From Pontibacter sp. G13 (GTDB taxonomy: Bacteria > Bacteroidota > Bacteroidia > J057): a DNA stretch of 64,000 bases. The stretch lies in assembly GCF_031851795.1 (NCBI RefSeq), contig NZ_CP134696.1, forward strand, positions 2,589,001 through 2,653,000. Direction: 5' to 3'. Shown piece by piece: positions 14,377-59,184 of this stretch. The notes under the pieces are model-generated. The model made no database searches. It was not told where the DNA came from and saw only the letters and a list, made by a program, of their open reading frames with translations. Position numbers and translations under genes: made by a program. Position 1 is the first letter of the stretch, and each line of letters opens with the position of its first letter.

Positions 14377-14571
14377 GTGCGGAAGGCTTGTGCGGTGTGA
14401 GGGATGGTAACGGTGCGACGCTAGGAGCAGTCCGAAGCATCCTTCATGATCAAGCTGGATGCCCAATCCTTGCGGAGGACGGAGCGTAGCGAACCCGTGC
14501 ACAGCCCGACTCGGCGACTCATTTGACTGGAGGAAAATTTCATGTCCAGCACGCCGAGGCACACCCAAATC
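14377..14571 (+). repeat. Dispersed structured intergenic repeat, copy 1
   Basis: The copy begins GTGCGG..GGCTTGTGCGGTGTGAGG and ends ACGCCGAGGCACACCCAAATC, ends shared with three other copies. Hairpin 1 is GTCC (14430-14433) with GGAC (14477-14480), with inner GCATCC (14437-14442)/GGATGC (14457-14462). A GGAGCGTAGCGA linker follows. Hairpin 2 is CTCGGCG (14510-14516) with CGCCGAG (14552-14558). It lies between the 3' ends of two convergent genes. An ORF crossing it (14314-14589, minus) is not conserved among copies. Confidence 0.75.
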
Positions 14572-14624
14572 CGCATGCTCAAACCCCAAGATATTCTGGA
14601 ATTGAATAGGGGTTGCTTGCCAGC

Positions 14625-16493
14625 CTATCGCGCTTGCTCAAACAGCTTGGTATGAATGCGTTTCAATTCCTCCACAGGTATTTTGATTACTTTCCGGTCG
14701 TAGGTAATCAGGCCGTTCACCTCTCCTTCGACATCGGTGATCTGGGTATAGACCGCTGCTGAAAGTCCTTTGGTACGCTTCATATCCACGATCTGGTCGA
14801 ATTTGTGCGCATATCCCTCGATCAATTCTGCCTGCGTTTTGTAGGTTTGGTAGCCCCAGTTTTTCATGTTGGGATTCCATAGGTGCTCTTGGATTGGATA
14901 GCCAATGCCCCCAAATTCACCAATCACCGAAGCCTTGTCGAGCGAGGTAGGCGGAACGCGGACATTTTTTCCATAGGTATGGATGTCATAGATGTCTCCA
15001 CACGGGCGCAATCCCCATCCGCTGGCAGAATTCACCAAACGGGATGGATCATAGTTTTGTACCATATCGCACACTCGGCAAGTGCCATACTGTCCCCATC
15101 CTTCGTTGAACGGCACCCACATCACGATACTGGTGGCATTGTAGTGCAGATCAATCATGCGCCGGAGTTCAGATTCGTACTGGTTGGTATCTTCACTTCT
15201 CCGGAACAGGTCTTCCTCTTTCCGCTTGATATGTTGCACATGATCAGGCTTGAGACGATCCTCCCGCGGCAACACGACCATTCCGGAAGGCATGTCTTGC
15301 CACACGAGCATCCCGAGTTTGTCGCAGTGATAATACCAGCGATCAGGCTCTACCTTGATGTGTTTTCTGATCATATTGAAGCCCATTTCTTGAGTCTTCA
15401 CGATGTCCCATTTCATGGCTTCATCCGAAGGCGGCGTGTGCAATCCATCTGGCCACCAGCCTTGGTCGAGAGTTCCGTACTGGAAGAGCGGCTCATTGTT
15501 GAGGAACAGGTACTGCGCTGCATTGTGAATCCCCAAACTGATTTTGCGCATGCCGAAATACGTGGAGATTTGATCGATTTCGGTACCTGATTGATTGACG
15601 AGACTCAGTTCCATATCATACAAAAACGGAGAATCCGGTGACCAGAGCTTGGCTTCTTTAAGCGGAAAGACCAATTCCCGATCTGCGGTAACTGCTCCTT
15701 GGTACACGACCTTGCCTTGATCCAACACCTTGACATTCACCTGGTAGATCGGCTTGAGGGGTTTGTTGATCATGGGAATGAGCGAAACCGTCTCTGAATC
15801 GATATCTGGGGTGATCTTGATCTCTTTGATCCAAGCTTCGGAGTTTACGGCTTCCAGCCATACCGTCTGCCAGATCCCGCTGACGGGGGTGTACCAGATC
15901 CCCTGTTGAGGCAGTTGCTGCTTGCCACGCGCCTGCGTACCCAAGCTAGTAGGGTCTGTAACACTGACGGTGATTTGCTGATCTTTTTTGTCGGAGAGGA
16001 ATGGGGTGATATTGAAGGAAAAACGATCGAATCCCCCTTTGTGAGCGCCTACCAATGCACCGTTGACCCATACCGTGGTATTCCAGTCTACCGCTTCAAA
16101 ATGAAGCATCACATCTTTTTGGTCCCATTCTGCCGGGATGCTAAAGGTACGACGATACCACAAGCGGTCGTTTTCGGTAACATCCTGTTTCACGCCAGAC
16201 AAGGTAGATTCAACACAAAATGGGACTAGGATTTCGTCTTTGAATGATTTCGGCTGGGGTTCATGGATCTTTTGCTGGGTAAAGTTCCAGATGCCGTTGA
16301 GGTTCTTCCAATTCTCCCTGACCAGCTGTGGCCGAGGATATTCTTGCCAGACATTGTCTGCTGTGACTGATTCCCCCCAGGAGGTCATCATTGGGGCATT
16401 TTCAGTCGATGATTGAGCCTGAATTTCTAGCGGCATTGCCCAGCAGAAAATGAGGCCAAAAATAAGCGAGCTTATTGTTCTAGCGGTGAACAT
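14625..16493 (-). CDS. Glycoside hydrolase family 2 (beta-galactosidase/glucuronidase-like)
   Basis: The frame opens at 16613 but overlaps the upstream sulfatase. ATG 16493 starts a signal peptide (MFTARTISSLIFGLIF..., cleavage near EIQAQS), giving 622 aa. The order is an N-terminal jelly-roll sugar-binding domain (WYRRTFSIP, WVNGALVGAHKGGFD), an immunoglobulin-like domain, then the TIM barrel. Within the barrel are IRKHIKVEPDRWYYHCDKLG, WVPFNEGWGQ (acid/base Glu464) and SVIGEFGG (nucleophile Glu526). It is a retaining exo-glycosidase, probably periplasmic. It lies 47 bp downstream of a sulfatase in the same direction, so the pair likely remove sulfate and then the sugar. The specific sugar is unknown. 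Confidence 0.92.
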   Translation of the reverse strand: MFTARTISSLIFGLIFCWAMPLEIQAQSSTENAPMMTSWGESVTADNVWQEYPRPQLVRENWKNLNGIWNFTQQKIHEPQPKSFKDEILVPFCVESTLSGVKQDVTENDRLWYRRTFSIPAEWDQKDVMLHFEAVDWNTTVWVNGALVGAHKGGFDRFSFNITPFLSDKKDQQITVSVTDPTSLGTQARGKQQLPQQGIWYTPVSGIWQTVWLEAVNSEAWIKEIKITPDIDSETVSLIPMINKPLKPIYQVNVKVLDQGKVVYQGAVTADRELVFPLKEAKLWSPDSPFLYDMELSLVNQSGTEIDQISTYFGMRKISLGIHNAAQYLFLNNEPLFQYGTLDQGWWPDGLHTPPSDEAMKWDIVKTQEMGFNMIRKHIKVEPDRWYYHCDKLGMLVWQDMPSGMVVLPREDRLKPDHVQHIKRKEEDLFRRSEDTNQYESELRRMIDLHYNATSIVMWVPFNEGWGQYGTCRVCDMVQNYDPSRLVNSASGWGLRPCGDIYDIHTYGKNVRVPPTSLDKASVIGEFGGIGYPIQEHLWNPNMKNWGYQTYKTQAELIEGYAHKFDQIVDMKRTKGLSAAVYTQITDVEGEVNGLITYDRKVIKIPVEELKRIHTKLFEQAR

Positions 16494-16540
16494 ACTACTT
16501 TGAATTAATGTGAAAATCTTATGAAGCCCGGCGCCTTTAG

Positions 16541-18310
16541 CTATTCCTGTATCGATTCGGGAGAGCCCCAAGGAGCTGGGAATACTCCTATCCTTTTGGC
16601 ATAAGCATCCCATTCGGCTGCCAATTCCTGAACAACTTCTGGATACTGCCCAGCCAGATCATGGAGTTCGCTCCGATCGGTAGACATATCGTACAGCTCC
16701 CAATCATAGAGAGTCAGTCCAGTCCAAATTCCGTATCCCTTCCCAGTCAGTTTTCCTTTTGCCACGAGTTTCCACTTGCCTTTTCTGACGGCTCGATTGC
16801 CTTCATGCTCCCAGAAAATGGGCTCCTCGCGCAGAAGTTCCTTACCTTGAAAGACAGGCAACAAGCTCTCACCCTCCATCGGTTGGATGACATTTCCGGC
16901 GTGAGTTTTGGGGTATTGGCCGCCCATCAGGTCGACCAATGTGGGCATGATGTCGATGAGGTGGCTGGGACTGGAGACGATTTGATTCCCTTCCGTGATC
17001 AGTTCAGGATAATGCACAATCAGCGGGGTACTGATCCCACCTTCATGAACCCAGTGCTTGTATTCACGGAATGGCGTATTGGAGCTATGCGCCCATTCTT
17101 TTCCGTAGGCCACATACGTGGTATCTGGTCCGCCTGAAATCCCCTTACCACGCATGACCCATTTGCCTTCACGTGTGATGCGTGGGATGGTGGTATACTC
17201 GATTTCATCAGGAGCCAGCGCGCGGTGTTTGGTTGTATCTTTGGCAAACGGGCGAGTCTTTCCGCCTAGGCCGATCCGTTCTGCGCAAGCGCCATTGTCC
17301 TGCAAAAAGAGGATGATGGTATTGTCCAAAATTCCTTCAGCATCCAACGAATCGACCAATCTGCCGATTCCTTCATCCATCACAGTCACCATGGCGGCAT
17401 AGGTTTCCATTCGGCCAGCCAGAACGGCCTTGTTTTTAGCTTCGGCCCAAGGGTTCACATCCAATGGTGGCAATTGGAGATCAGCATCTACCAGTCCCAG
17501 CGTTTTCAATCTGGCCAACCGGCGCATACGTACTTCCTCCCAACCTTGATCGTAATGCCCATCATAGGCTGCAATATCTGCTGCGGGAGCCTGCATAGGC
17601 CAATGGGCTGCGGTATAGGCCATGTACATGAAAAAGGGCTTGCCCTTGTCGCGCTCTTGCACAAAGCGGATAGCGTGATCCGAGATGGCGTTGGTGTAGT
17701 AATAATCCTCAGCGGGATATTCGGAATCGATAAATGGTGTGATCAGTTGATTGTCTCGGCAAAGCGTGGCGGGATCGTAAAAATTGCCAGCTCCTTGGAC
17801 GGTGCCATAAAATCGGTCAAATCCCCGTTGGATCGGCCAATTGTCCTTGGGGCCATCATTTTCCATCTTTTTGGTCACATGCCATTTGCCCGTCATCATG
17901 GTGCTATATCCCGAAAGCTTGGCCACTTCTGCCAACGTCACAGCTTTGGAGCTGAGATTGCCCTGATAGGCTTCGGGTGGGTTGGGGGCTTTGATGGCGG
18001 TCATCCACCCCATTCCTGCCTGATGCGGATACAGACCGGTAAGGAGGGATGCACGGGTAGGACAGCATCGAGCGGCATTGTAGAATTGGGAAAAGCGCAA
18101 ACCTCCCTCGGCCAATTGATCGAGATTAGGAGTTCTGATTTCTCCGCCATAACATCCCAGATCAGAGTATCCCATATCATCCGACATGATCAAAATGATG
18201 TTGGGGCGTAGGGCTGTCTGATGAGGAGATTGTTGACCCATGCCCCATTGTGGGAGAAGCGCCAAGGCCATGATGCATAGCCGGAAACAAGTCGATTGTA
18301 GAACGTCCAT
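16541..18310 (-). CDS. Arylsulfatase-type sulfatase (S1 family)
   Basis: The frame opens at 18394; I take ATG 18310, which starts a hydrophobic leader (FRLCIMALALLPQWGMGQQ), giving 589 aa. The metal site is LIMSDDMGYSDLGCYGG (Asp44/45). The formylglycine signature RCCPTRASLLTG follows the C-x-P-x-R rule with Cys82. Further motifs are LTGKWHV, the C-terminal metal site FLQDNGACAERIG and the tail LYDMSTDRSELHDLA. This matches the large arylsulfatase A-like group common in glycan loci. It is probably first gene of a two-gene unit with the GH2 enzyme. The substrate position is unknown. Confidence 0.92.
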   Translation of the reverse strand: MDVLQSTCFRLCIMALALLPQWGMGQQSPHQTALRPNIILIMSDDMGYSDLGCYGGEIRTPNLDQLAEGGLRFSQFYNAARCCPTRASLLTGLYPHQAGMGWMTAIKAPNPPEAYQGNLSSKAVTLAEVAKLSGYSTMMTGKWHVTKKMENDGPKDNWPIQRGFDRFYGTVQGAGNFYDPATLCRDNQLITPFIDSEYPAEDYYYTNAISDHAIRFVQERDKGKPFFMYMAYTAAHWPMQAPAADIAAYDGHYDQGWEEVRMRRLARLKTLGLVDADLQLPPLDVNPWAEAKNKAVLAGRMETYAAMVTVMDEGIGRLVDSLDAEGILDNTIILFLQDNGACAERIGLGGKTRPFAKDTTKHRALAPDEIEYTTIPRITREGKWVMRGKGISGGPDTTYVAYGKEWAHSSNTPFREYKHWVHEGGISTPLIVHYPELITEGNQIVSSPSHLIDIMPTLVDLMGGQYPKTHAGNVIQPMEGESLLPVFQGKELLREEPIFWEHEGNRAVRKGKWKLVAKGKLTGKGYGIWTGLTLYDWELYDMSTDRSELHDLAGQYPEVVQELAAEWDAYAKRIGVFPAPWGSPESIQE

Positions 18311-18665
18311 AAATAGATAGTTGTATTGGCAGATTCCAAGCCCACCCTTCAACTGGTTCAGGCGGATGAAAAATCGAATCATCCAACGATCCACAAACCT
18401 ATCAAAGCGAGGGTCTACCGTTTGGGAATTATGCCCAATGATTGTTGAAAATGGTCCAATTGGCAGATTGGTACTATTCTACCCCTTGCCATCAGAATCT
18501 CGAATATGAGGATTCTAGGCGCTTTTGATGGGGGCAAATCATCTCAATTTTGGGCTTGGACGCACAGGGCAAGAAAATGGACAATCGTCCGAATTTGGAA
18601 AGGGATAATATGCGCAGATTGATTCTGCTAGTTGGATCCATCCATTTGGATGAAAATTTGATTAT
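18311..18665. other. Divergent intergenic region between two sulfatase genes
   Basis: 355 bp separate the minus-strand sulfatase-GH2 unit from the plus-strand sulfatase at 18666. It should contain two promoters. I saw no exact TAnnTTTG, no repeat copy and no RNA gene. Confidence 0.35.
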
Positions 18666-20330
18666 ATGTTATCAAGACTATTGCTGAGCATATTCCTGTT
18701 TGGAATGACGCTCTCATTCGCCCAGTCCCAAAGGCCCAACGTGGTGTTCATCTTGGCAGATGATTGCACCAAATTTGATTTGGGTTGCTATGGAAGCCCC
18801 GACTCCAAAACTCCCACCATCGATCAATTGGCCGCAGGTGGCATGCAATTCAATCGTTGCTATCAAGCGGCACCTATGTGTTCGCCCACACGCCATTCCA
18901 TTTTCACGGGCTTATATCCTGCGCGTTCAGGGGCCTATCCCAACCATACCTATGCTGAGGATGATGTCCAGTCTGTGGTTCAGTATTTGAATCCGCTGGG
19001 ATATCGGGTAGGCCTTACAGGCAAAACCCATATCGCGCCGAAGTCCATTTTTGACTTCGAATATCTAGATGACAAACATGTGCTCATCGGCCCGGAGACG
19101 GAGGCATTCTTGAGCAGCGCAAGCGAGAATGAAGAAAACTTCTGTCTGTTTGTGTGTTCCAATGAGCCACATACCCCTTGGAACCAAGGCGACCCCAGCC
19201 AGTTTGACCCAGTCAAGATCACCCTGCCCGAGATGTACGCCGATCTTCCGAGAATCCGCGAAGAGTTTTGCAAATATCTCGCTGAAATCAATTATCTGGA
19301 CGGCCAGGTCAAACAGACGCTCGATGCCTTGGACAAATACGGATTGCGTGAAAATACCGTCATCATTTTTGCCAGCGAACAGGGCAATTCGTTCCCATTT
19401 GCCAAATGGACGTGCTATCAGGCAGGGCTCGGTTCAGCATTGATCGTCAACTGGCCTGCTTCCATTCAAGCAGGATTGACCTCCGAAGCACTAGTCGAAT
19501 ACACGGACATTTTGCCGACCATCATCGACCTTGCTGGTGGCGAACCAGTCGATCATCTAGATGGGCAATCCTTGCTGCCGCTATTGAAGCAGGAAACCGA
19601 TACGCACAAATCATTCACCTATGGAATGCAGACCACCCGAGGCATCATCAACGGGGCAGCTTATTATCCCATCCGGAGCGTAGCTGGCGATACGTTTCGA
19701 CTCGTTTGGAATATTTCCCCTGAAATGGCCTTTAGAAATGTCGTTTCCGAGAAAAAATGGTTCAAGGAATGGCTCAACTCTCCGGATGCTGAAACCCGGA
19801 AAACCGCCAATCTCTATATCCATCGCCCAGAATTCGAGCTTTACAACGATGTGACAGATCCCTATAACCGGCAAAATCTCATTGATCAACCCGAATACGC
19901 CGACAAAGTGAAAGCGCTGAAAGCAGAACTTCATCGATGGATGGAACATTGCGGAGATTTGGGACTGGAAACCGAACTCCATGCGGATGTGCACAAGAAT
20001 CGGGGGGGAAAAGGCAGTAGTCAAGTGAAAGGAAATGCTCATACGGTCGTGATGGGACTCCAAGCCTCAAGGCCTTCTGGCAACCTCCAGATTGAGGTTC
20101 AGGGATACTACTCCTTTTCTACCAAAAAAGATTGTGAAGTATTTGTGGATGGTATTCAGCTCATCTGGCCGACTCAAAATTCCAAGCTGGCACTTCGACG
20201 AGGAGTCATTGGCCTTGAAACAGGGCACCATACCTTAGAGATCAAGAGCAATGGACCAGTCCCCCAATTGTCTTGGTCAGGGCCCAATTTCCAACCTCAG
20301 GTTATGCCACAACTCGAAAGCCCTGAATAG
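18666..20330 (+). CDS. Sulfamidase-like sulfatase with C-terminal PA14-like domain
   Basis: 554 aa with a signal peptide ending at LSFAQ. FILADDCTKFDLGCYG (Asp32/33) and MCSPTRHSIFTG (formylglycine Cys72) define a type I sulfatase. The overall pattern (LTGKTHIAPKSIFDFEY, short length) resembles heparan N-sulfatase relatives. The second metal site reads FASEQGNSFPFAKWTCY where other sulfatases have SDxG. After about residue 440 there is an extra domain ending LEIKSNGPVPQLSWSGP, resembling PA14/chitobiase-C carbohydrate-binding folds. A terminator-like hairpin shared with the convergent tRNA genes lies downstream. It is the last gene of the sulfated-glycan locus. Confidence 0.9.
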   Translation: MLSRLLLSIFLFGMTLSFAQSQRPNVVFILADDCTKFDLGCYGSPDSKTPTIDQLAAGGMQFNRCYQAAPMCSPTRHSIFTGLYPARSGAYPNHTYAEDDVQSVVQYLNPLGYRVGLTGKTHIAPKSIFDFEYLDDKHVLIGPETEAFLSSASENEENFCLFVCSNEPHTPWNQGDPSQFDPVKITLPEMYADLPRIREEFCKYLAEINYLDGQVKQTLDALDKYGLRENTVIIFASEQGNSFPFAKWTCYQAGLGSALIVNWPASIQAGLTSEALVEYTDILPTIIDLAGGEPVDHLDGQSLLPLLKQETDTHKSFTYGMQTTRGIINGAAYYPIRSVAGDTFRLVWNISPEMAFRNVVSEKKWFKEWLNSPDAETRKTANLYIHRPEFELYNDVTDPYNRQNLIDQPEYADKVKALKAELHRWMEHCGDLGLETELHADVHKNRGGKGSSQVKGNAHTVVMGLQASRPSGNLQIEVQGYYSFSTKKDCEVFVDGIQLIWPTQNSKLALRRGVIGLETGHHTLEIKSNGPVPQLSWSGPNFQPQVMPQLESPE

Positions 20331-20368
20331 ATCGCTACACGCTTTTCAGAACTTTCAGCTTTCCATAA

Positions 20369-20395
20369 AAAAACCCTGTCCGAATTCGGACAGGG
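20369..20395 (-). terminator. Terminator of tRNA-Arg copy (distal)
   Basis: A perfect hairpin, CCCTGTCCGAATTCGGACAGGG, reads on the minus strand as a stem followed by TTTTTTT. It sits directly after tRNA-Arg 20417-20490. Confidence 0.85.
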
Positions 20396-20416
20396 TCTAC
20401 GTTATTCCAATTTTTG

Positions 20417-20490
20417 TACACTCGGAAGGATTCGAACCCTCAACCTCCTGATCCGTAGTCAGGTGCTCTATCCAGTTGAGCTACGAGTGC
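20417..20490 (-). tRNA. tRNA-Arg (anticodon ACG), copy A
   Basis: 74 nt cloverleaf with acceptor GCACTCG/CGAGTGT (a G-U first pair), D-arm GCTC..GAGC, anticodon stem CCTGA/TCAGG with loop CTACGGA (anticodon ACG), and T-arm GAGGG TTCGAAT CCTTC. The discriminator is A and CCA is not encoded. It has its own terminator. Confidence 0.95.
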
Positions 20491-20499
20491 GCGTCTCGT

Positions 20500-20530
20500 C
20501 TGAGAAAAAAGCCCCATCTCGTGCGACAGG
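20500..20530 (-). terminator. Terminator between the two tRNA-Arg copies
   Basis: On the minus strand GCCCTGTCGCACGAGATGGGGC is followed by TTTTTTC, an imperfect hairpin with T-run just after copy B (20552-20625). Confidence 0.6.
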
Positions 20531-20551
20531 GCCTGCGTTATTCCAATTTGG

Positions 20552-20625
20552 TACACTCGGAAGGATTCGAACCCTCAACCTCCTGATCCGTAGTCAGGTG
20601 CTCTATCCAGTTGAGCTACGAGTGC
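20552..20625 (-). tRNA. tRNA-Arg (anticodon ACG), copy B
   Basis: Sequence identical in the tRNA body to copy A (anticodon loop CTACGGA, T-loop TTCGAAT). It lies 61 bp upstream of copy A in transcription. Flanking bases (cgttattccaattt) are also shared, pointing to a tandem duplication. It is preceded by a TACCTTTG promoter element. Confidence 0.95.
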
Positions 20626-20643
20626 ATGTCTCATTGGCGGATG

Positions 20644-20651
20644 CAAAGGTA
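20644..20651 (-). promoter_or_regulatory. Bacteroidota -7 promoter element for tRNA-Arg
   Basis: TACCTTTG on the minus strand is an exact match to TAnnTTTG, ending 18 bp before the tRNA 5' end. No clear -33 TTTG was seen at the usual spacing. Confidence 0.6.
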
Positions 20652-20813
20652 GCCAAATATTTGGCTGATGCCAGTTTTTGGCGAGAAAATTTTGAAAAAA
20701 GTCTGCATAATTTACAAAAAACTCTTTCCGAATTCTGTAATATGGATTTTTTCGGCTTTTTTCACTAAATCACCTTTCTCTAAAACCTACTTTACTACCC
20801 TTGTATTCACCCT

Positions 20814-23279: not shown

Positions 23280-23312
23280 CCCAGTCAACCTCTCTGCAAG
23301 GGTAGTAGTCAG

Positions 23313-23347
23313 AAGCGCCAATCCAGTCATTTGGGTTGGCGCTTTTT
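23313..23347 (+). terminator. Terminator of the TonB-dependent receptor gene
   Basis: AAGCGCCAATCC pairs with GGGTTGGCGCTT and runs into TTTTTG, 34 bp after the stop codon. Confidence 0.8.
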
Positions 23348-23363
23348 GATGTATGAGATGGAT

Positions 23364-23530
23364 GATTAGGGCGTATCCCGGCGTACTCGGCATCTGGGAG
23401 ATTGCCGGGCATGAGGGTCGCCGGGCCGGGCGCTTGCAGGCTCGCTGGTCGCTCGGTCTCTCCGCGGGGCTCCGAGACTGCGGCTGCGCCTTACCTTTCA
23501 GCCCCCTTACGCCGCACAAGCCAGCCGCAC
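23364..23530 (-). repeat. Dispersed structured intergenic repeat, copy 2
   Basis: Read on the minus strand it starts GTGCGGCTGGCTTGTGCGGC and ends ACGCCGGGATACGCCC then TAATC. Hairpin 1 is short: GTCTC/GAGAC (plus-strand 23474-23478 and 23456-23460). Hairpin 2 is CCCGGCG (23419-23425) with CGCCGGG (23377-23383). It is GC-rich compared with its flanks and lies between two plus-strand genes, antisense to both. Confidence 0.75.
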
Positions 23531-23607
23531 CTGAAATATCAATCCTCTCAGATATTCTGTTGCCAGTTTGATTATCTTCGGCTTCCCAAGACTGCAAATC
23601 AACGCTC

Positions 23608-26369: not shown

Positions 26370-26514
26370 GCAGCTAGATTGAGTGATTGGAGGCGAATGG
26401 GGAAAAGTATCCCCCAGTTTGGCGCTCAATTAAAGATAACGTTATTCGATGGGCCTTCAAACATCATCTTTGAGAGAGCTTTCCCCATAGACTGCGGATA
26501 GAGACAAACTCCAT

Positions 26515-47589: not shown

Positions 47590-47615
47590 GTTGGAAAAGT
47601 GCGTAATTCGTCTGA

Positions 47616-49135: not shown

Positions 49136-49147
49136 GAATTTGAGGGA

Positions 49148-49879: not shown

Positions 49880-49896
49880 AATTATTTTGTGCTACC

Positions 49897-49904
49897 CAAA
49901 AATA
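49897..49904 (-). promoter_or_regulatory. Possible -7 element for the phosphatase-dcd operon
   Basis: TATTTTTG on the minus strand matches TAnnTTTG, 17 bp before the ATG at 49879. No -33 TTTG at standard spacing is visible. Confidence 0.4.
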
Positions 49905-50004
49905 ACAACTCCTTTAGTATTTGGGCATGAAAAATGGGGATATCCTCCCTTCCGGCAAATTTGGTCATTTACCTGATGAAATGGGACGAAATTTGCAAGT
50001 AACC

Positions 50005-50880: not shown

Positions 50881-51062
50881 CTCGGCCGGTTTCGGGTATT
50901 GACAGGATGGATTGTTATATTCGGACAAGGGGAATGGGTCCCCGCCTTTCGTTTTATCTAAGTCTCAGTTTCCCGAAACACGTTCTACTTTCCCGACGAA
51001 CCTCCGAAAAGATCAGCTCGTAGTAATCTTTTCCGAGTAATCTCTCCTAACGCGCTTACACC

Positions 51063-52931
51063 ATGAACGTGAAACGCCTGTTTACCGTCACTTCTGTTTC
51101 TTACGTTGCCCCGCTTATATGCGGGCTGCTGTCTGCGTCGAATGCGTATGCGCAAGACCCTCCTCGACGCCACTGTGGCACCATGCCGCATCTTGATCAG
51201 CAAATAGACGACAATCCCAATACACGGTACCAAATCCAAGAGGTCGAGAACAATACCCAGATGAACACCAAGCAAGTAGGTGGGGGTGTTCAGGGTACCA
51301 TCAAAGTCCCCGTCGTCATCCATATCTTGTGGCGCAACCAAGTCGAGAATATCTCTGAAGAGCAGGTATTTTCACAATTGGAGGTCTTGAATGAAGATTT
51401 CCGCCGCCGGAATTCGGATCGCACCGATACACCTGCGGAATTTGCCGGAGTCGCTGCCGACACCGAAATCGAGTTCGTTTTGGCCAAGCAAGACCCGCGC
51501 GGCATGCCGACAAACGGAATCATCCGAAAACGAACTACCAAAGCCTCATTCTTCTCGCAAGACAATGATGTCAAGTATAGCTCGATGGGCGGCGCAGATG
51601 CATGGCCCACCGACCAATACCTCAATATCTGGGTTTGCAACCTCGCTCAAGGTATGCTGGGATATTCTCAGTTTCCGGGAGGAGGCGCCAATGAAACGGA
51701 TGGTGTAGTGATCGGCTATCGCTTTTTCGGAACAATGGGGACAGTTTCCTCGCCATACGATCAAGGTAGAACTACCACCCATGAGGTCGGCCATTGGCTG
51801 AATCTCCGCCACATTTGGGGGGATGGAGATTGCTCTGCAGACGATTTTGTAGACGATACTCCAACTGCCCGTGCAGCGCATCATGGTTGCCCAACTCACA
51901 TGTACAGCTGTGGACATCGGAGCATGACGCAGAATTTCATGGACTACACCGATGATGCCTGCATGAATCTCTTCACTGCTGGCCAGAAGCTTCGAATGCG
52001 CGCCTTGTTCGGTATTGGTGGATTTCGGAGAAATATGCTGTACTCCCAGGGGGCTGTGCCTCCCGTGGACCAATACACTGCGCCTCATGAACTCCTCGTA
52101 TCCCAAATCGGCGACAAATCGGCCCATCTCAGTTGGGAGGATGTACCGGGCGTAACCGCTTACCAAGCTGGAATCAGACCGGTAGGTTCAGCCGAATGGC
52201 TTGAGCGCTACTTCGATCGAAACTATGCACAGCCTACCAGTTTGGAGGCTTGTACCCAATACGAATTCCGGCTGAGAAGTATCTACGGAGGATATACCAG
52301 TGATTTCTCTGAGACTGTGCGATTCACTACGCGCGGCTGCGAAGAGCAGGTGGTGGCAGTTTCCAACGAGACTGTACCTTCCCGGATGGACATTTCTCCG
52401 ATGGGAGGCACGCAGGCACAGATTGCTTGGACGCCTGTTTCGCAAGCTAGCTCATACGAGATTCAGTACAAGATGTCGGGCTCACGCAATATCCTCAATC
52501 GGATGGTGGATCGACCAGAAGCCGTGCTTCCCAATCTCCAGACGGGGGTTCGGTACTACATCAGAGTACGAGCGTACATCCAAGGTCAAGCCCAATCCTA
52601 CTCCAAGGTATTCAGCTTTGTCGCAGGAAGGGCCAACACCTCCAATGCTCGGATCGCTTCCAGTGCCCAAGGACCTGCGGAAATTGAAGTTCAGCCCACA
52701 GCAGATCCCCGGTACGTCCAAGTGTCTATGGATTTGTTGGATGCTTCCCTTTGGTTGATGACCGTTTGGAATCAGGATGGTCAAGTTGTCCGAGCATTTG
52801 ACCCCTTCGAGGTCTCTCCGGGTGCTCCGGTCGAATTGGACATGATCGACCTCCCCAGAAACATGGGCTACAGACTCACGGTGGAAGACGAAGATGGATT
52901 TGGCTTGGAGACTGAATTCTACCTGCAATAA
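51063..52931 (+). CDS. M43 (cytophagalysin/pappalysin) metalloprotease with two fibronectin type III domains
   Basis: 622 aa with a signal peptide ending at NAYAQ. The catalytic domain (about 80-320) contains the family block VEVI-like start TIKVPVVIHILW, EEQVFSQLEVLNEDFRRRN, zinc site TTTHEVGHWLNLRHIWGDGDC and the Met-turn TQNFMDYTDDACM. Two fibronectin type III domains follow (about 340-425 and 440-530). The C-terminal 80 residues are beta-rich but lack a clear T9SS motif. It is secreted or periplasmic and digests proteins. Its own strong terminator follows. Confidence 0.92.
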   Translation: MNVKRLFTVTSVSYVAPLICGLLSASNAYAQDPPRRHCGTMPHLDQQIDDNPNTRYQIQEVENNTQMNTKQVGGGVQGTIKVPVVIHILWRNQVENISEEQVFSQLEVLNEDFRRRNSDRTDTPAEFAGVAADTEIEFVLAKQDPRGMPTNGIIRKRTTKASFFSQDNDVKYSSMGGADAWPTDQYLNIWVCNLAQGMLGYSQFPGGGANETDGVVIGYRFFGTMGTVSSPYDQGRTTTHEVGHWLNLRHIWGDGDCSADDFVDDTPTARAAHHGCPTHMYSCGHRSMTQNFMDYTDDACMNLFTAGQKLRMRALFGIGGFRRNMLYSQGAVPPVDQYTAPHELLVSQIGDKSAHLSWEDVPGVTAYQAGIRPVGSAEWLERYFDRNYAQPTSLEACTQYEFRLRSIYGGYTSDFSETVRFTTRGCEEQVVAVSNETVPSRMDISPMGGTQAQIAWTPVSQASSYEIQYKMSGSRNILNRMVDRPEAVLPNLQTGVRYYIRVRAYIQGQAQSYSKVFSFVAGRANTSNARIASSAQGPAEIEVQPTADPRYVQVSMDLLDASLWLMTVWNQDGQVVRAFDPFEVSPGAPVELDMIDLPRNMGYRLTVEDEDGFGLETEFYLQ

Positions 52932-52950
52932 TGCATGAAATCCACAGCAC

Positions 52951-52985
52951 AACAAAGCCGCCTCGATAGGCGGCTTTGTTGTTTG
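52951..52985 (+). terminator. Terminator of the M43 protease gene
   Basis: AACAAAGCCGCCT (52951-52963) pairs perfectly with AGGCGGCTTTGTT (52968-52980), then GTTTG. 20 bp after the stop. Confidence 0.85.
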
Positions 52986-53034
52986 ATAGGGTCATGTCCG
53001 ATCTCGGCAGGACTTGATAGCTACCCATCTCGAA

Positions 53035-53221
53035 GTGCGGATGGCTTGCGGGGTGTGAGGTGCCTGAAGTGGACACCGTCAGGTGGAGTCTCCCATCATG
53101 GGGTGGCGATATCTCGCCCCATGGTGGGAGACCGAGCGAAGCGAGCACGGAAGGGACCGACCCAGCGACCTAAATATCTGGGGAGGAATCTATCCCGAGC
53201 ACGCTGGGGCACACCCAAATC
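53035..53221 (+). repeat. Dispersed structured intergenic repeat, copy 3
   Basis: It starts GTGCGGATGGCTTGCGGGGT and ends ACGCTGGGGCACACCCAAATC. Hairpin 1 is long: GTCTCCCA (53088-53095) with TGGGAGAC (53125-53132), continuing as CATGGGG/CCCCATG and CGA/TCG. The linker is CGAGCGAAGCGAGC. Hairpin 2 is CCCAGCG (53161-53167) with CGCTGGG (53202-53208). It lies between convergent genes. Short ORFs crossing it are not shared by other copies. Confidence 0.78.
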
Positions 53222-53254
53222 GCTATTGGCTTGATCTTTTGTCCAAAGAAGGAC

Positions 53255-54640
53255 CTACTTCTCGGAGAATTTGCCTTTGAGGTGATAGGCTTTGGGTTGG
53301 GTGAATGCGCGGATCCCTAGATAGGAAAGCGTCCATCCAATCCCCGAATCTCCCCTACCCGACCAGGGCAAAGATGGACTCAGGCGATCACAGCAATTCC
53401 AATAGACTGTGCCGGACTGCATCCGATCCATGATGGGCTTGGCAGTTTCGAAGTTGTCGGCATACACCGAAGCAGTCAGTCCAAACGGGGTATCCTGCAT
53501 CATTGCAATCGCTTCCTCATCATCCGAAACTCGCTGTATTCCGATGACCGGACCGAAGCTCTCTTCCTTCATCACGGCCATTTCGTGGGAGACATTCCCC
53601 AAGACCACCGGAGCAAAATAGTATCCAGAATCCGTGCCTTCCGGCAAAGGCGGCTGAAACAGTATTTGCGCTCCCTTCTCTACCGCATCAGCTACCTGCT
53701 CCGCAAGAAATGAAGGTTGACTGGCTCTTGTAAGCGGTCCGATGAACGTCCCTTCTTGAGTCGGGGCGCCTACTTGGAGAGTCGCGGCTTCCTCCACGAA
53801 TGCCTCCACAAATTGGTCATAAACTGACTCGTGCACATAGACTCGCTCAACCGCACAGCAACTTTGTCCAGCATTGTAGAATGCACCTTCAACTGCAGCT
53901 TGGGCAACAGCCTGTACATCGGCATTGTCAGCACTCACATAAAGTGGGTCCTTTCCTCCTAGCTCTAGTTGAATAGGCACCAATTTATCGGCTGTTTTCT
54001 GGCGAATGTACTGTCCGGTACGATACGATCCCGTGAAAAAATATCCGTCAAGCGGCAATTCCAGAAGCGCCTCACCGGCCTCTGCGCCCCCTTTCACGGT
54101 GTAGAAAACATCTGCTGGAATCCCTGCCTCCAAAAGCAATTGTTCGATTTCAAGCCCTGTGAGGGTAGCGTATTCGGAGGGTTTGTACATCACGGCATTT
54201 CCGGCGATCAGCGCGGGCACGAAGACATTGACTCCGACGAGATAGGGATAGTTCCAGGCCGAGATATTGGCAATCACCCCGAGCGGCTCCCAGCGTATCA
54301 TTTCACCGTATTGCTCACTTTTAGCGATCCATTCGTCGGCAAGCCATTTTTCAGATTCTTGGAGAAAAAACTCGATTCGACCTCTAGCTCCTCGGATTTC
54401 TCCTGCAGCTTGAGAAAGGGGTTTTCCGACTTCAGAAGTCAGAATCTCCGCTAAACGATCTTGGTGTTGGCCGAGTAATTCATGAAATCGGGATAATCTC
54501 GCAATGCGTTCTGGAAGCGGGACACTGAGCCATGATTGTTGGCCCTGAAGAAGTTGTTGATACTTCGAAGAAATGGACGCTGTAGTGTCGGCGGCAATAT
54601 CCGCGATAACCTGTCCGTTGGCGGGATTGATGATCTCCAT
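53255..54640 (-). CDS. Aldehyde dehydrogenase (succinate-semialdehyde dehydrogenase-like)
   Basis: The frame opens at 54673; ATG 54640 begins MEIINPANGQVIADI, the usual start, giving 461 aa. NISAWNYPYLVG and FTGSYRTGQYI form the NAD(P) site. LELGGKDPLYV carries the general-base Glu and NAGQSCCAVERVYV the catalytic Cys. EESFGPVIGIQRV and the C-terminal WSGRGDSGIG complete the fold. The substrate is probably a short aldehyde. Cytoplasmic, single gene. Confidence 0.93.
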   Translation of the reverse strand: MEIINPANGQVIADIAADTTASISSKYQQLLQGQQSWLSVPLPERIARLSRFHELLGQHQDRLAEILTSEVGKPLSQAAGEIRGARGRIEFFLQESEKWLADEWIAKSEQYGEMIRWEPLGVIANISAWNYPYLVGVNVFVPALIAGNAVMYKPSEYATLTGLEIEQLLLEAGIPADVFYTVKGGAEAGEALLELPLDGYFFTGSYRTGQYIRQKTADKLVPIQLELGGKDPLYVSADNADVQAVAQAAVEGAFYNAGQSCCAVERVYVHESVYDQFVEAFVEEAATLQVGAPTQEGTFIGPLTRASQPSFLAEQVADAVEKGAQILFQPPLPEGTDSGYYFAPVVLGNVSHEMAVMKEESFGPVIGIQRVSDDEEAIAMMQDTPFGLTASVYADNFETAKPIMDRMQSGTVYWNCCDRLSPSLPWSGRGDSGIGWTLSYLGIRAFTQPKAYHLKGKFSEK

Positions 54641-54883
54641 GAGATGCGTCTTGAGCGTTGAGGAAAGCGCCAAATATTGGCTGAGATTGCAAGAAAAGCA
54701 ATTTGCCTAATTCTCTCATGAAAGCTGCAAAAGTTTCCGCTTTCGGATGTAATGGGTCAATTCTCACCCCTGTATGAACATCCAGTGGAAAAACTGGAAA
54801 ACTTTCCCCCAAAAATCTTTTTCATCCCGAATTACGGCCCGAAATTCGTGGAACGAACGGAATCAAACCTGCGAATAACCCCC

Positions 54884-56347
54884 ATGGACCTCCAACAAGA
54901 ATTGACAACCAAGGAGAAAGCCTTGGCGATCAATCTCCAATCCAAATACTATGGTTCCTTTGCCGAAATCGGTGCGGGCCAAGAGACTGCCGAACATTTC
55001 TTCAAGGCAGGTGGTGCTTCAGGCACAATTGCCAAGACCATGTCGGCCTATGACATGAAATTCAGCGATGCCATTTACGGCAAAGCGAAAAGATACGTCT
55101 GCAAGGAGCGCTTGCAAACCATGCTCGACCATGAATATGATCTCCTAGAGGAACGATTGGACGAGCGGTCAGAAGACACATGCTTCTTTGCCTACGCGAA
55201 TACCGTTGAGACCCTCAACTACCGCAAGACCAATCGTGGTCACGGCTGGATCGGCTTGCGATTCCAGCTAGCTCCGGGCACTCCCACCAACGAAGTCATC
55301 TTACATGTCGGCCTCAAGGACAATGAGACACGTTGGCAACAAGAAGCCATTGGGATCTTGGGGGTCAATCTCATCTACGGCTGTCTGTTCCGATCCGAGA
55401 AAATGGAGGACCTCCTCGAAACCCTGGTAGAAGGCCTTTCGCTTGATCGGGTGGAAATCGACATGATCGAGGTAAAAGGCCCTGATTTCAAGCAGGTCGA
55501 CAATCGCCTTTTGGCACTGAAGCTCGTCAGAAATGGCCTGACACAAGCTGCTATGTTTGGCCCGGATGGAACAGTTCTTCATCCCTCAGATGCCCTCTAC
55601 AAAAAGAATGTCCTGATTCTCCGAGGCAGATTCAGACCAGTCACCCATGTCAACATGGATATGCTAGAATCTGGCAAGCGACATTTTATGGAAGAAGATG
55701 GCGTCAGCGAGGATGAATTGCTGGTGCTATTTGAACTGACCCTGAACAGCCTTCAGGCGGAAGGAGGGATCAACGAGCGGGACTTCTTGGATCGCGTGGA
55801 CATCCTTTGCTCCATGGGCCAGACCGTAATGATCTCCAATTACTACCTGTACTATCGACTGGTCTCCTACCTGACCCAATTCAATCGAGATCGTAAAGTC
55901 GGCTTGATTCTGGGGGTACACAATCTGGAATTGATCTTTGAAGAGGATTACTATACGCACCTCAAAGGCGGGATTTTGGAGGCTTTTGGGATCTTGTTTG
56001 GGCGAGATGTGAAACTCTACACCTACCCAGCTCTACAGCCAGACAGCGATGAGTTGTATTGCTGCGAAAATTTCCAGCTGCGTCCCGATCTCATGCACTT
56101 GTTTCAATACCTCCACGACTCCAACAAAATCGAGGATATCACCGGAGTCGACCCCAATCTCCTGCATATCACCTCCGACGAAACGTTGGCCATGATCAAA
56201 GGAGGTCAAACGGGCTGGGAGCAAAATGTCCCCAAACAGGTGGAACAAGCCGTAAAAATGCTGGGACTCTTCGGATACCAAGATGAATCGGAAGCATCTC
56301 ACAAATCTGCTTCGAATCCCGAACCTTTTAGTTCGAAAACCGAATAA
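54884..56347 (+). CDS. Conserved protein of unknown function
   Basis: The frame opens at 54752, but ATG 54884 starts the conserved region (MDLQQELTTKEKALAINLQS), giving 487 aa. Notable blocks are FAEIGAGQETAEHFFKAGGASGTIAKTMSAYDMKFSDAIYG, RYVCKERLQTMLDHEYDLLEERL and TMVETLNY-like ANTVETLNYRKTNRGHGWIGLRFQ. I recall near-identical blocks in uncharacterised proteins of other bacteria, sometimes mislabelled as TonB receptors; nothing here is receptor-like (no signal peptide, no barrel). It is soluble and probably cytoplasmic. No function can be given. Confidence 0.8.
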   Translation: MDLQQELTTKEKALAINLQSKYYGSFAEIGAGQETAEHFFKAGGASGTIAKTMSAYDMKFSDAIYGKAKRYVCKERLQTMLDHEYDLLEERLDERSEDTCFFAYANTVETLNYRKTNRGHGWIGLRFQLAPGTPTNEVILHVGLKDNETRWQQEAIGILGVNLIYGCLFRSEKMEDLLETLVEGLSLDRVEIDMIEVKGPDFKQVDNRLLALKLVRNGLTQAAMFGPDGTVLHPSDALYKKNVLILRGRFRPVTHVNMDMLESGKRHFMEEDGVSEDELLVLFELTLNSLQAEGGINERDFLDRVDILCSMGQTVMISNYYLYYRLVSYLTQFNRDRKVGLILGVHNLELIFEEDYYTHLKGGILEAFGILFGRDVKLYTYPALQPDSDELYCCENFQLRPDLMHLFQYLHDSNKIEDITGVDPNLLHITSDETLAMIKGGQTGWEQNVPKQVEQAVKMLGLFGYQDESEASHKSASNPEPFSSKTE

Positions 56348-56406
56348 ACCACTGCACCATCCTTGATGGTTACAGGTAATCCGTAGTCATAGTAGTAACT
56401 TGATAA

Positions 56407-56443
56407 GCGCCCAGTTTTCCCGATTTACTGGGTGCTTTTTTTT
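56407..56443 (+). terminator. Terminator of the 54884-56347 gene
   Basis: GCGCCCAGT (56407-56415) pairs with ACTGGGTGC (56427-56435), followed by eight T. Confidence 0.85.
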
Positions 56444-56530
56444 GAAGCTGATTCTGGGTTTCTCTTTTGGCTGCAAATGCCCATTTTCAGAACCTCAATT
56501 GGCCATTTTCCATTCGCTACCGCGATAGCC

Positions 56531-57037
56531 TTACCTTCCCAATCCCCAACCCATAGCGATCCCAAATCCATGCCTATGATCATCTGGTCTAAACAGGGGT
56601 GTGTAGGCCATTTTAAGGAATAAGCCTCCATTTCGATAGGGATGAAGCCGCAAACCGAATATTCCCGTCGGTACCGTTTCGGAACCCTGTTCCATCAACT
56701 CTGAGTCAAAACTAAAGGTCACTCCCACGCCAGCTTCAATAAAAAGCCGGTCTCGTCCCATAAAAGCACTGATGGTAGTCGGGATCCGCACCTCTGCCTT
56801 GGACCGGGATGCAGGATAGGCGCCCACCCCGAATCTCGCCGCAAGTCCCAGCCAATGATTGGACAGAAAGGTCTGTTCGTAGTTCAGAGAATAATACTCC
56901 CCATTTCCCAGTACCTCCAAGAAGATGATGTCCGAGGCTATCACACGCTGTCGGTCTGGCTCGAGAAATTGCCCAAAAACGAGGCTATAGGAGGCAAGCA
57001 TGGACACAAGGAGAAACGCGGATCGAAAGGCAAGCAT
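56531..57037 (-). CDS. Small outer membrane beta-barrel-like protein
   Basis: 168 aa with a signal peptide (RSAFLLVSMLASYSLVFGQ). The mature protein has alternating-pattern strands (GEYYSLNYEQTF, LAARFGVGAYPA, RLFIEAGVGVTFSFD, GLFLKMAYTPLF) and ends FGIAMGWGLGR. It is probably an 8-stranded barrel of unknown role. Single gene. Confidence 0.65.
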   Translation of the reverse strand: MLAFRSAFLLVSMLASYSLVFGQFLEPDRQRVIASDIIFLEVLGNGEYYSLNYEQTFLSNHWLGLAARFGVGAYPASRSKAEVRIPTTISAFMGRDRLFIEAGVGVTFSFDSELMEQGSETVPTGIFGLRLHPYRNGGLFLKMAYTPLFRPDDHRHGFGIAMGWGLGR

Positions 57038-57275
57038 ATTGAATATCTGTATTATCTAATAAATAAATTATCCATCAATCAAAGAAGCAGGAATAACACT
57101 TGGGGTTACATCGGGGGGAACTGCCACCACGTTGAGGGACAGGATTCTCAGGTTCAGGAAAAGTTCCATGGGATTCACGAGAATTGGGGCAACTCATTCT
57201 GGCGATTCGGGTATATTTCTTTGACTGACGACACGGCAACCCGATTTCCAGCATTCATCCTATTCTGATCCAATC

Positions 57276-57716
57276 ATGTTTTCCATCCAATTCAACTCTA
57301 CCCTTCCTATTGGCCCAGTTCGATTGGGCTTTCTGTTTTGTGCCCTGATTTTGGGATTCTGCTTACTTCCCTTGCCCGAGGTTTCGGGAGTATGGCTGAG
57401 AGAGCTGGCCGGAGCCGGTGTCATATCTGCCTGGGCAACCTTACTCGTTTTTTCGATCCAATCACATTTTCATCGTTATCGCCAGTACATCCCAACATGG
57501 GGATCACTCACCATTGAGTTGATGATAGGTATGGTCGCTTTTAGCGCCTCAACCATGCCGATTCTATACAAATGGTATAGCTGGCAAGGGATTTCGACTA
57601 TTGAATCAGGAGAGTTCCTGAGTCAGGTTTGGATTCCTTTGGTGATTGTATATGCCCTAGGAGCGCTATTTGGCGCATTTTTGAAAAAACTGAGACTATT
57701 TTACAAAAAAACGTGA
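57276..57716 (+). CDS. Integral membrane protein of unknown function
   Basis: 146 aa with about four membrane spans: LGFLFCALILGFCLLPL, GAGVISAWATLLVFSI, ELMIGMVAFSASTMPIL and VWIPLVIVYALGALFGAFL. It ends in a basic tail (KKLRLFYKKT). No family is recognised. It sits alone between an outer-membrane-protein gene and the FKBP gene. Confidence 0.65.
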   Translation: MFSIQFNSTLPIGPVRLGFLFCALILGFCLLPLPEVSGVWLRELAGAGVISAWATLLVFSIQSHFHRYRQYIPTWGSLTIELMIGMVAFSASTMPILYKWYSWQGISTIESGEFLSQVWIPLVIVYALGALFGAFLKKLRLFYKKT

Positions 57717-57791
57717 CCTCGCGAATATGGGGCCGTCCTAAAGGTGAATTAAGTAAGTCTAGGTCTTAAACACAGCAGAATTCCGGATTGG

Positions 57792-57825
57792 GGCAGTGAG
57801 CGCAATGCTCGCTGCCGTTTTTTTT
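57792..57825 (+). terminator. Terminator upstream of the FKBP gene
   Basis: GGCAGTGAGC (from 57792) pairs with GCTCGCTGCC (to 57816), followed by eight T. It probably ends transcription from the 57276 gene. Confidence 0.85.
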
Positions 57826-57916
57826 ATGCCTATCTTTGCCACAACTCGTATTCGGGCTTTTCGCGAAGGTGGCGCCACTCGGGCTCCTGCCTTTCCTGCC
57901 CGATTAAATTCCTTTC

Positions 57917-58765
57917 ATGAGCTTTCTCAAAGACTTCCTGAACAAACGGGACATCACGTTCCAAGAAAGCCCCGATGGGGTTCTATATACAGTTGAAACG
58001 CCCGGCGAAGATCCCAAACCTGCCGCTGGTCAATATGTACAAGTACACTACACAGGCAAGCTCCTCGACGGGACAACCTTTGACTCATCCGTTGAGCGCG
58101 GCACCCCATTTGTCTTCAAACTCGGTCAAGGGCAAGTTATCAAAGGTTGGGACGTCGGTATTCCGCTCTTTGGAATCGGAGGTAATGGTACCATCTATCT
58201 TTCGCCCGAATTGGGCTATGGCGCCCAAGGTGCAGGAGATGCCATTCCCCCCAACGCTTCCCTTCAATTCGATATTCAGGTACTCGGTATCCTGAACGAA
58301 GAGGAATATCAGGCTTACGAGAAGGCCCAAATCGAAGAGCGCCAGAAAGCATTGGAAGCATTCATGCGCCAGCAGATGGAGATCGATCTCGGTATCATCA
58401 AGGATCACATCCAAAAATCTGGCAAAGATTTCTTGGTGACCGAATCTGGCCTGTTCTACCACATCTCTGAAGAAGGTTCTGGCGCCAAAGCTGAAGCCGG
58501 TAAGGATGTAGAGGTACACTACACCGGTCGTCTGCTCGATGGCACCAAGTTCGATTCCTCCCACGATCGCGCACAACCGATTGCCTTCCCATTGGGAGCA
58601 GGGCGCGTGATTCCCGGTTGGGATGAAGGCATCCAGCTTTTTTCCGAAGGGGGCAAAGGGACTCTGGTGATCCCTTCCTTGATGGCCTATGGCCCTCGCG
58701 CTATGGGACCGATTCCCGCCAATGCTGTGCTGGAATTTGATATCGAAGTCGTCAAAGTGGGATAA
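57917..58765 (+). CDS. Tandem FKBP-type peptidyl-prolyl cis-trans isomerase
   Basis: 282 aa, two FKBP domains and no signal peptide. Domain 1 (about 30-120) has VHYTGKLLDGTTFDSS, VIKGWDVGIPLF and SPELGYGAQGAGDAIPPNASLQFDI. Domain 2 (about 185-282) has VHYTGRLLDGTKFDSS, VIPGWDEGIQLF and PSLMAYGPRAMGPIPANAVLEFDI. A charged helical linker (EEYQAYEKAQIEERQKALEAF) joins them. Both keep the main active-site aromatics. It probably assists folding in the cytoplasm. Confidence 0.93.
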   Translation: MSFLKDFLNKRDITFQESPDGVLYTVETPGEDPKPAAGQYVQVHYTGKLLDGTTFDSSVERGTPFVFKLGQGQVIKGWDVGIPLFGIGGNGTIYLSPELGYGAQGAGDAIPPNASLQFDIQVLGILNEEEYQAYEKAQIEERQKALEAFMRQQMEIDLGIIKDHIQKSGKDFLVTESGLFYHISEEGSGAKAEAGKDVEVHYTGRLLDGTKFDSSHDRAQPIAFPLGAGRVIPGWDEGIQLFSEGGKGTLVIPSLMAYGPRAMGPIPANAVLEFDIEVVKVG

Positions 58766-58785
58766 TTCCCCTTAGGCACATATAT

Positions 58786-58818
58786 GGGCTAGCGCTTGAC
58801 CGAGTGCTAGCCCTTTTT
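58786..58818 (+). terminator. Terminator of the FKBP gene
   Basis: GGGCTAGCGCT pairs with AGTGCTAGCCC, followed by TTTTTG, 20 bp after the stop. Confidence 0.85.
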
Positions 58819-58956
58819 GATTGGGGCTATGTAAGGATCGCTTGTGCTCAATTATCCATGAATACCCAGCGTAAGCTCCATTTTTGGGCTTCTCGATAGA
58901 TTGAGCGATTGGGCATTCGATTTGTCTTGGATGCCTATCCCCTCTCGAAATATGAT

Positions 58957-59184
58957 CATTTGGGCGTGCCCTCGCGTGCTTGCCATAAAGTACTCCCCAA
59001 CCAAAAGGGTCGCGAGGTCAGGCTGTTCATGGGGTCGCAAGCTCCGTCCTCGGATTCCATCGGCCCACAAACAGGGAGTGTTCCCCATTCTGAGGAGCGA
59101 ATTTGAGTATGCCTTCCCACCTTCCTCGGACTGCCCCTAGCGGGGCACCATTTCCATCCTTCACGCCTCACCAGCCAACCGCAC
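58957..59184 (-). repeat. Dispersed structured intergenic repeat, copy 4 (longest)
   Basis: On the minus strand it starts GTGCGGTTGGCTGGTGAGGC and ends ACGCGAGGGCACGCCCAAAT. Hairpin 1 has outer GTCC/GGAC (plus 59128-59131 and 59046-59049) around an insert of about 80 nt. The GGAGC...GCGACC linker is kept. Hairpin 2 is CCTCGCG (59011-59017) with CGCGAGG (58970-58976). ORFs crossing it have no homologous counterpart in other copies. Confidence 0.72.

Follow-up and report, generated by a model that had tools for sequence, protein, structure and literature searches.

Intergenic repeats of Pontibacter sp. G13 with a predicted three-way junction: a probable divergent branch of a Flavo-1 superfamily

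Four copies of a branched intergenic element

The window analysed here is a stretch of 64,000 nucleotides of the Pontibacter sp. G13 genome (NZ_CP134696.1, positions 2,589,001 to 2,653,000). It has a G+C content of 49%, its proteins include type 9 secretion system (T9SS) sorting domains, which place the host in the Bacteroidota, and an Rfam scan at the gathering threshold found four tRNAs in it and nothing else. An earlier reading of its sequence had proposed a four-copy intergenic repeat with common ends and a covarying terminal stem, either a structured RNA or a selfish palindromic element. The four positions were borne out, differing by one base at most at the 3′ end. The common ends are present, as is the terminal stem, which reads CTCGGCG/CGCCGAG, CCCGGCG/CGCCGGG, CCCAGCG/CGCTGGG and CCTCGCG/CGCGAGG in the four copies, each then followed by AC. 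The described placement near gene 3′ ends also holds, since in the ORF list every copy has the 3′ end of at least one long open reading frame (ORF) no more than about 200 bp away.

Each copy, read from GTGCGG to CCCAAAT, is predicted to fold as a single strand into one three-way junction. Its parts are, in order, a P1 stem, a linker A, P2, a conserved internal loop, a variable P3 branch, a linker GA, a P4 hairpin, one purine, the 3′ strand of P1 and a tail, CAAAT. The copies are listed below with their matches to two covariance models, R1, built from copies in the same genome, and R2, built from relatives in other genomes.

14377..14570, + strand: copy 1, whole element from GTGCGG (5′) to CCCAAAT (3′); R1 148.5 bits; R2 14395-14570, E 3.6e-9
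14394..14399, + strand: copy 1, P1 5′ strand GGTGTG, partner CACACC at 14560-14565
14401..14403, + strand: copy 1, outer P2 5′ strand GGG, inside the Flavo-1-like string GAGGGATGGTAACGG, partner CCC at 14505-14507
14510..14516, + strand: copy 1, P4 5′ strand CTCGGCG (the terminal stem of the original prediction), partner CGCCGAG at 14552-14558
14560..14565, + strand: copy 1, P1 3′ strand CACACC, followed by the conserved tail CAAAT
23365..23530, - strand: copy 2, short P3 subtype; R1 154.0 bits; R2 E 7.5e-4
53035..53220, + strand: copy 3, subtype with one long P3 hairpin; R1 174.0 bits; R2 E 6.6e-7
58958..59184, - strand: copy 4, long P3 subtype; R1 125.9 bits; R2 E 1.8e-9

In pairwise blastn of the four copies, the best piece was strongest between copies 1 and 4 (E 2e-11) and weakest between copies 2 and 4 (E about 3e-3). 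Copies 2 and 4 are crossed by listed ORFs of 158 and 109 residues, and by eye a terminator-like hairpin with a T-run lies at about 52955-52985, copy 3 starting some 50 bp further on.

A genome-wide family with a covarying fold

The repeat extends well beyond the window. In the whole genome (G000; 7.67 Mb in three contigs, C1 being the main one and C3 spanning 93 kb), the 5′ motif GTGCGGNNGGCTTGTGCGG, with no more than two mismatches allowed, matched 151 times, compared to three matches for a reversed control pattern, and 98 of the 100 matches listed lay on C1. R1 was derived from alignment A2, which comprises 26 copies from this genome. Of its 1615 candidates 150 were scored and all 150 matched (E ≤ 2.6e-26), giving a lower bound of 150 copies. 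The motif and R1 sets together define 209 candidate sites on C1. Because 39 of the 98 motif matches on C1 recur among the 150 R1 matches, capture-recapture estimates the total at about 377 copies, a rough figure that assumes independent detection. Of the 59 sites found by the motif only, 34 lay in DNA searched with R1, which confirmed every one of them. C3 carries two copies. Elements are about 165–260 bp long in this genome, and the closest kin within a sample of 56 copies are 72–94% identical over the best piece.

The alignment columns yielded a P1 of 6 bp, a P2 of 3+3 bp around a mismatch and a P4 of 7 bp, while P3 consists of a base, a small hairpin (P3a), a variable arm and a mini-hairpin (P3c). 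A2 was aligned with MAFFT and not fitted to a structure; the structure was itself derived from A2, which favours it in the following comparison. Over the 26 copies 89.4% of cells were paired, compared to 71.3±0.9% after shuffling, and 26 of 36 pairs showed double changes. The covariation score was 0.472; shuffling gave 0.139±0.012, and sliding the partners gave no more than 0.103. P1 was paired in 98.7% of cells, with both sides changed in three of its six pairs, and P4 in 99.5%. P3a (65%) and the inner P3 arm (68%) paired weakly, and both vary by subtype. The covarying stem of the original prediction is real and is one of several, as P1 (GGYGTR/YACRCC), P2, the base of P3 and the outer P3c pair covary too.

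Covariation held when more copies were aligned. Across 120 distinct copies, 2495 of 2512 cells (99%) in 21 main-stem pairs were Watson-Crick, and as many as four pair types occurred at a single position. These pairs contained 473 minority Watson-Crick cells, 10 G-U and no A-C cells, compared to 32 G-U and 145 minority Watson-Crick cells in 31 tRNAs of the same genome (Fisher 6e-12, where the 21 pairs were picked out of 36 after a first count over all pairs and cells are not independent). Outside the 21, the two inner P2 pairs add 13 G-U, one A-C and 37 other mismatches. Their inclusion brings G-U to 23 against 519 minority Watson-Crick cells (4%), compared to 32 against 145 (22%) in tRNAs. The 13 P3 pairs outside the 21 hold 25 G-U and 60 A-C cells. 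With so few G-U cells, the pairing is closer to the strict kind found in DNA, although tRNAs may be selected for some G-U. Compensatory change had been put forward as selection on structure. It does reflect a fold kept along lineages of copies, but alone it proves neither selection at each site nor RNA over single-stranded DNA.

Relatives and the link to Flavo-1

Flavo-1 (RF01705) entered Rfam in about 2010 as a probable RNA to which no function had been assigned. R1 matched in 12 of 100 genomes, the source genome included, and in 18 loci of the relatives found in this way Rfam gave no match at gathering thresholds. A pattern for the 3′ half of the element, drawn from these relatives, was used to pick the loci behind R2. 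It occurred in at least 119 stretches of named genomes, and the 80 listed were mostly from Bacteroidota. Among the matches listed are Flavobacterium, Pedobacter, Epilithonimonas, Algoriphagus and others, with a few Spirochaetes, Fibrobacterota and other metagenome-assembled genomes (MAGs). The pattern was also present in eight IMG/VR contigs, and elements of the window type were seen in four contigs of that collection (L248, L249, L251 and L253). A blastn search of plasmid and phage collections with copy 3 only gave no match.

RF01705 scored above gathering in six of 17 pattern loci (L166, L185, L161, L200, L206 and L192), in L185 at a place other than the pattern match. Alignment A5 consists of 33 of the 41 elements extracted from relatives (74–181 bp), none from G000, eight long or divergent ones having been left out, and RF01705 matched five of the 15 rows checked (L161, L166, L192, L206 and L258). 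Unconstrained RNAalifold folding of A5 gave the same P1/P2/P4 junction and linkers as in the window copies. R2, the covariance model built from A5, matched in 38 of the 100 genomes. In the window it found exactly the four copies, with the E values listed above and nothing more up to E 10. It was weaker on other subtypes of G000, where matches were partial or had E >0.01 for L005, L007, L013, L026 and the main copy of L017, and with stricter filters it matched eight of 39 scored candidates. In four compared examples R2 and RF01705 coincide (for example G053:C4:215484-215565 for R2 and 215476-215551 for RF01705), R2 extending 14–25 bases further at the 3′ side.

Because R2, built without G000, finds only the four copies and coincides with RF01705 in relatives, the window copies appear to share ancestry with RF01705 members by way of this bridging model. 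The likeness includes a core, GGGAU..GG / GGAYAGCCC, in the loop between P2 and P3, as well as the phylum, the multicopy habit and the lack of a known function. The string GAGGGATGGTAACGG in copy 1 differs by one change from GAGGGATGGTAGCGG in the Flavo-1 locus L161. P2 (GGG/CCC, a mismatch and two pairs) and the conserved internal loop of Flavo-1 are present, most clearly in copies 1 and 4. In contrast, RF01705 matches (76 positions) end before the P4 hairpin and the P1 3′ strand, and the window copies add the GTGCGG leader at the 5′ end, larger P3 branches and a very high copy number. In some relatives the element is, by eye, shorter and lacks P1 and P4. In one locus (L078:1501-1734, G037) a CCCTTCGACAAGCTCAGGG hairpin, of a type common in bacteria, is nested in the P3 arm.

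No named family had been recognized for the repeat, and Rfam offers it a distant link rather than a direct match. RF01705 itself falls short of the copies: none in the window scores against it at the gathering threshold of 42 bits, copy 1 gave no match up to E 5, and three further G000 copies gave none up to E 10. The window elements are best placed in a divergent and more elaborate branch of a Flavo-1 superfamily, outside RF01705 as curated.

A table in Weinberg et al. 2010 (PMC2864571) marks Flavo-1 as an RNA of Bacteroidetes, neither cis-regulatory nor a switch. Flavo-1 as a mobile, multi-hundred-copy or head-to-head element is not described in the accessible parts of PMC2864571, a Flavobacterium psychrophilum transcriptome paper (PMC9723704), a review (PMC9029176) or the related literature, supplements and most subscription journals aside. 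Literature searches by sequence string and by repeat type gave no recognizable description of the window element.

Dispersal, head-to-head pairs and competing explanations

The family is very probably a dispersed repeat, and movement is supported but not proven. At E ≤ 0.01 RF01705 matched in 31 of the 100 genomes (17 above its cut-off) and in none of 14 controls, with at least 42 matches in G084. Within one genus, G057 carries at least 39 R2 matches, compared to two in G096. We compared 20 regions of G057 with 1.6 Mb of the 4.3-Mb G096 genome. Eleven regions matched, five of them with both flanks (L317, L319, L322, L323 and L328), and all five loci are without the element in G096. R2 searches up to E 1 found nothing in four matching G096 pieces or in three other pieces. 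In G000 the flanks outside GTGCGG and CAAAT are unrelated between copies. An outer stem built from the flanks, apparent in single folds, was rejected, as pairing between the true left and right flanks did not exceed that between swapped ones.

These sharp ends, unrelated flanks and presence or absence at orthologous sites point to a mobile, non-autonomous element. With moderate confidence we favour the explanation that the four copies are short non-autonomous mobile repeats of an expanded, elaborated Flavo-1 branch, which fold as a three-way junction and are moved as a folded single strand by an enzyme acting in trans. The element would move as folded DNA or RNA, a putative enzyme would recognize the fold, and recognition would be selected over many rounds of copying, which would keep the stems strictly paired as their sequence changes. 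Most copies would have no host role and would persist at sites where they disrupt no promoter. A few, such as those upstream of ileS in Algoriphagus, may be taken over as 5′-untranslated-region (5′-UTR) RNA. The original choice between structured RNA and selfish palindrome is thus answered in part: the repeat has a conserved multi-helix fold and is dispersed and apparently mobile, but it is a three-way junction with a variable branch and not a simple palindrome.

Several observations weigh against this explanation. No mobilizing gene came to light: 100 of the 103 nearest long ORFs in 59 loci of relatives were scanned with Pfam (three ileS genes being left out), and no family matched more than three of them. 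Target duplications show no excess at 2–9 bp in 56 copies, and target motifs are weak, with a preference for CMTCC just 3′ of the element. The identity ceiling of 94% in this sample means that recent jumps were not seen directly. As the matched G057 and G096 pieces are only 64–81% identical, insertion junctions are unreadable and deletion is possible. The link to Flavo-1 is indirect, RF01705 giving no match in G000, and R2 is not fully independent of R1, since the pattern that picked its loci came from relatives detected by R1. Counted across all 36 pairs, A-C (61) outnumbers G-U (48), which weakens the strand argument. The excess of G-U over A-C in the main stems points to the strand as drawn as the folding strand, but this is a hint only because the balance reverses over all pairs; the analysis reads the A-C excess as misaligned P3 subtypes. 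The head-to-head bias described below comes without a mechanism, and no gene family recurs between paired copies, where the ORFs are different and, by eye, ordinary-looking, so that a cargo gene was rejected. Finally, some sites are kept across species, which is compatible with host function too: the ileS site in Algoriphagus (L169, L193 and L198), one in Epilithonimonas and Chryseobacterium (L197 and L206), and one in two Flavobacteriaceae (L133 and L149).

The elements at the Algoriphagus site, where the identity of ileS was confirmed by TIGR00392, are as follows.

L169:1036-1139, same strand as ileS: element about 35 nt upstream of the gene
L193:6129-6221, same strand as ileS: element about 35 nt upstream of the gene
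L198:3004-3107, same strand as ileS: element about 35 nt upstream of the gene

At this site the element lies behind TATCTTTG, which we take to be promoter-like. The letters of the P3 and P4 arms differ between the loci and still pair, which suggests selection for the fold in place. The two Flavobacteriaceae elements (L133:7103-7203 and L149:3354-3451) share a gene neighbourhood and differ in P3 subtype, by either replacement or independent insertion. L151 and L181 were not counted as one shared site, since they have genes in common but differ in the position of the element.

Closely spaced copies tend to face each other. Among the matches listed for G000, all nine pairs less than 600 bp apart are (-,+), with their 5′ ends facing. 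In the searched G000 DNA, which covers 121 distinct places, 15 of 17 such pairs are head-to-head (P = 7e-8), a further (-,-) row having been left out as one element seen twice. The two exceptions are a tail-to-tail pair (L120) and a same-strand pair with a degenerate copy (L026). In the former (L120:1-450), the sole close pair of its kind in this DNA, the 3′ ends are 105 bp apart and the first copy is cut by the start of the locus. In the Bacteroidia MAG SKYG108 (JANWVE; loci including L127, L128, L134, L139 and L173), 159 kb of sequence selected for the element contains 94 of its 5′ cores, and 38 of the 40 neighbours less than 700 bp apart are head-to-head. By eye, the AT-rich spacer there contains several imperfect palindromes of about 46 bp (ACCTTG...CAAGGT). 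The spacer between two elements in L110 (463-2639) contains several similar units that make up a separate long repeat; these read as overlapping ORFs on both strands, which are probably spurious.

The pairs bear on two further proposals. One is that transposition acts on the head-to-head pair as a whole, which would make it an undescribed class of transposon. Two Flavo-1 folds would flank a short spacer as its structured ends (TTTGGGCGTG...CACGCCCAAA), the unit would travel as single-stranded DNA with the help of an enzyme of neither the Y1/HUH nor the reverse transcriptase type, and single Flavo-1 copies across Bacteroidota would be solo ends. We put this forward as a tentative and rather doubtful possibility. 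A pair taken whole does end in TTTGGGCGTG..CACGCCCAAA. The other proposal, which seems to us improbable, makes the pair the working unit of an architectural or recombination site in DNA, serving the nucleoid, replication or a host recombinase. The bias in two genomes speaks for such a site, as do the 337-345 bp between 5′ cores in 21 of the 38 SKYG108 pairs and the opposed orientation of 39 of 46 neighbours within 9 kb among the matches listed (30 of 37 without the nine close pairs). However, most sampled G000 copies have no partner within 600 bp, and G000 spacers range from 11 to 289 bp with nothing obvious in common by eye.

That each copy is instead a host-functional RNA carried in transcripts, as a 3′-end stabilizer, an attenuator or a small RNA (sRNA) whose fold is selected at each site, is unlikely in our view, although gene context lends it something. 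Simple ORF calls place 50 of 56 copies next to one or more gene 3′ ends; the other six comprise five in divergent gaps and one without an ORF call on one side. The re-paired P3 and P4 arms of the three copies before ileS fit this proposal. So does the coincidence of some Flavo-1 matches with 5′ transcribed regions in Flavobacterium psychrophilum, as given in PMC9723704, but the same paper describes matches as indistinctly sense or antisense, with many outside transcribed regions. Nor do the copies keep a clear orientation to genes: 15 of the 50 lie in convergent and 35 in co-directional gaps, 21 of the latter antisense and 14 sense. In the flank profiles of the 56 copies no conserved promoter stands out over 45 bp on the left, and the absence of a T-run 3′ of the element led us to reject an intrinsic terminator. 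Copy number among relatives ranges from 0 to at least 26–42. Another intergenic repeat of G000, GAGCCGGATTACCC...GCCGAAATCCG(G/C)CTCAGC, was seen near elements, in the L095 spacer (395-683) and in the left flanks in L002 and L010.

Known repeats and enzymes offer further comparisons. REP and BIME repeats, moved by RAYTs, are intergenic, dispersed, non-autonomous and structured, and sometimes form inverted pairs. The window family is like them in all these respects, and G000 has two Y1_Tnp matches. A repeat of this type moved by an IS200/IS605-like Y1 (HUH) transposase is nonetheless very unlikely, since Y1_Tnp went undetected in six carriers (G098, G059, G029, G014, G020 and G035; draft assemblies, in which absence is unproven), and no transposase family is among the 25 commonest Pfam families of the 100 neighbouring ORFs, most single-ORF families falling outside these 25. 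Moreover, the element is a junction of about 190 bp and not a palindrome of 20–40 bp, and by eye seven of its nine closest pairs combine different P3 subtypes. We give equally little credence to copying through RNA by a reverse transcriptase in trans, from a group II intron or retron. The oriented fold and the single RVT_1 match in G000 agree with it, whereas RVT_1 was undetected in 10 of 16 carriers, including G098, G059, G062, G084 and G068, and neither domain was detected in G098, G059, G014, G020 and G035 (all drafts, as above). A miniature inverted-repeat transposable element (MITE) of a DDE transposon was rejected, as GTGCGG and CAAAT are not inverted repeats and the 56 copies show no excess of target duplications. 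A shared neighbour gene in relatives (67 loci, 327 ORFs) was likewise rejected. The widest cluster, ABC-ATPase-like and of a common kind, spans five loci, and other clusters are orthologous neighbourhoods or genes of viral contigs. ERIC and BOX are structured intergenic repeats of 100–200 bp whose mechanism is unknown. Compared by description only, the window family is of similar size and kind and differs in its conserved branched fold and near-total Watson-Crick covariation in the main stems.

The favoured explanation, a mobile repeat moved in trans, recasts Flavo-1 as a family that is dispersed and apparently mobile, whose fold gains P1 and P4 and which is greatly expanded in some genomes. 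Flavo-1 matches in transcriptomes may then be repeats and not regulators. The head-to-head arrangement points to a unit of movement and makes an orphan motif testable, and if no known type of transposase is involved, the enzyme would be worth finding.

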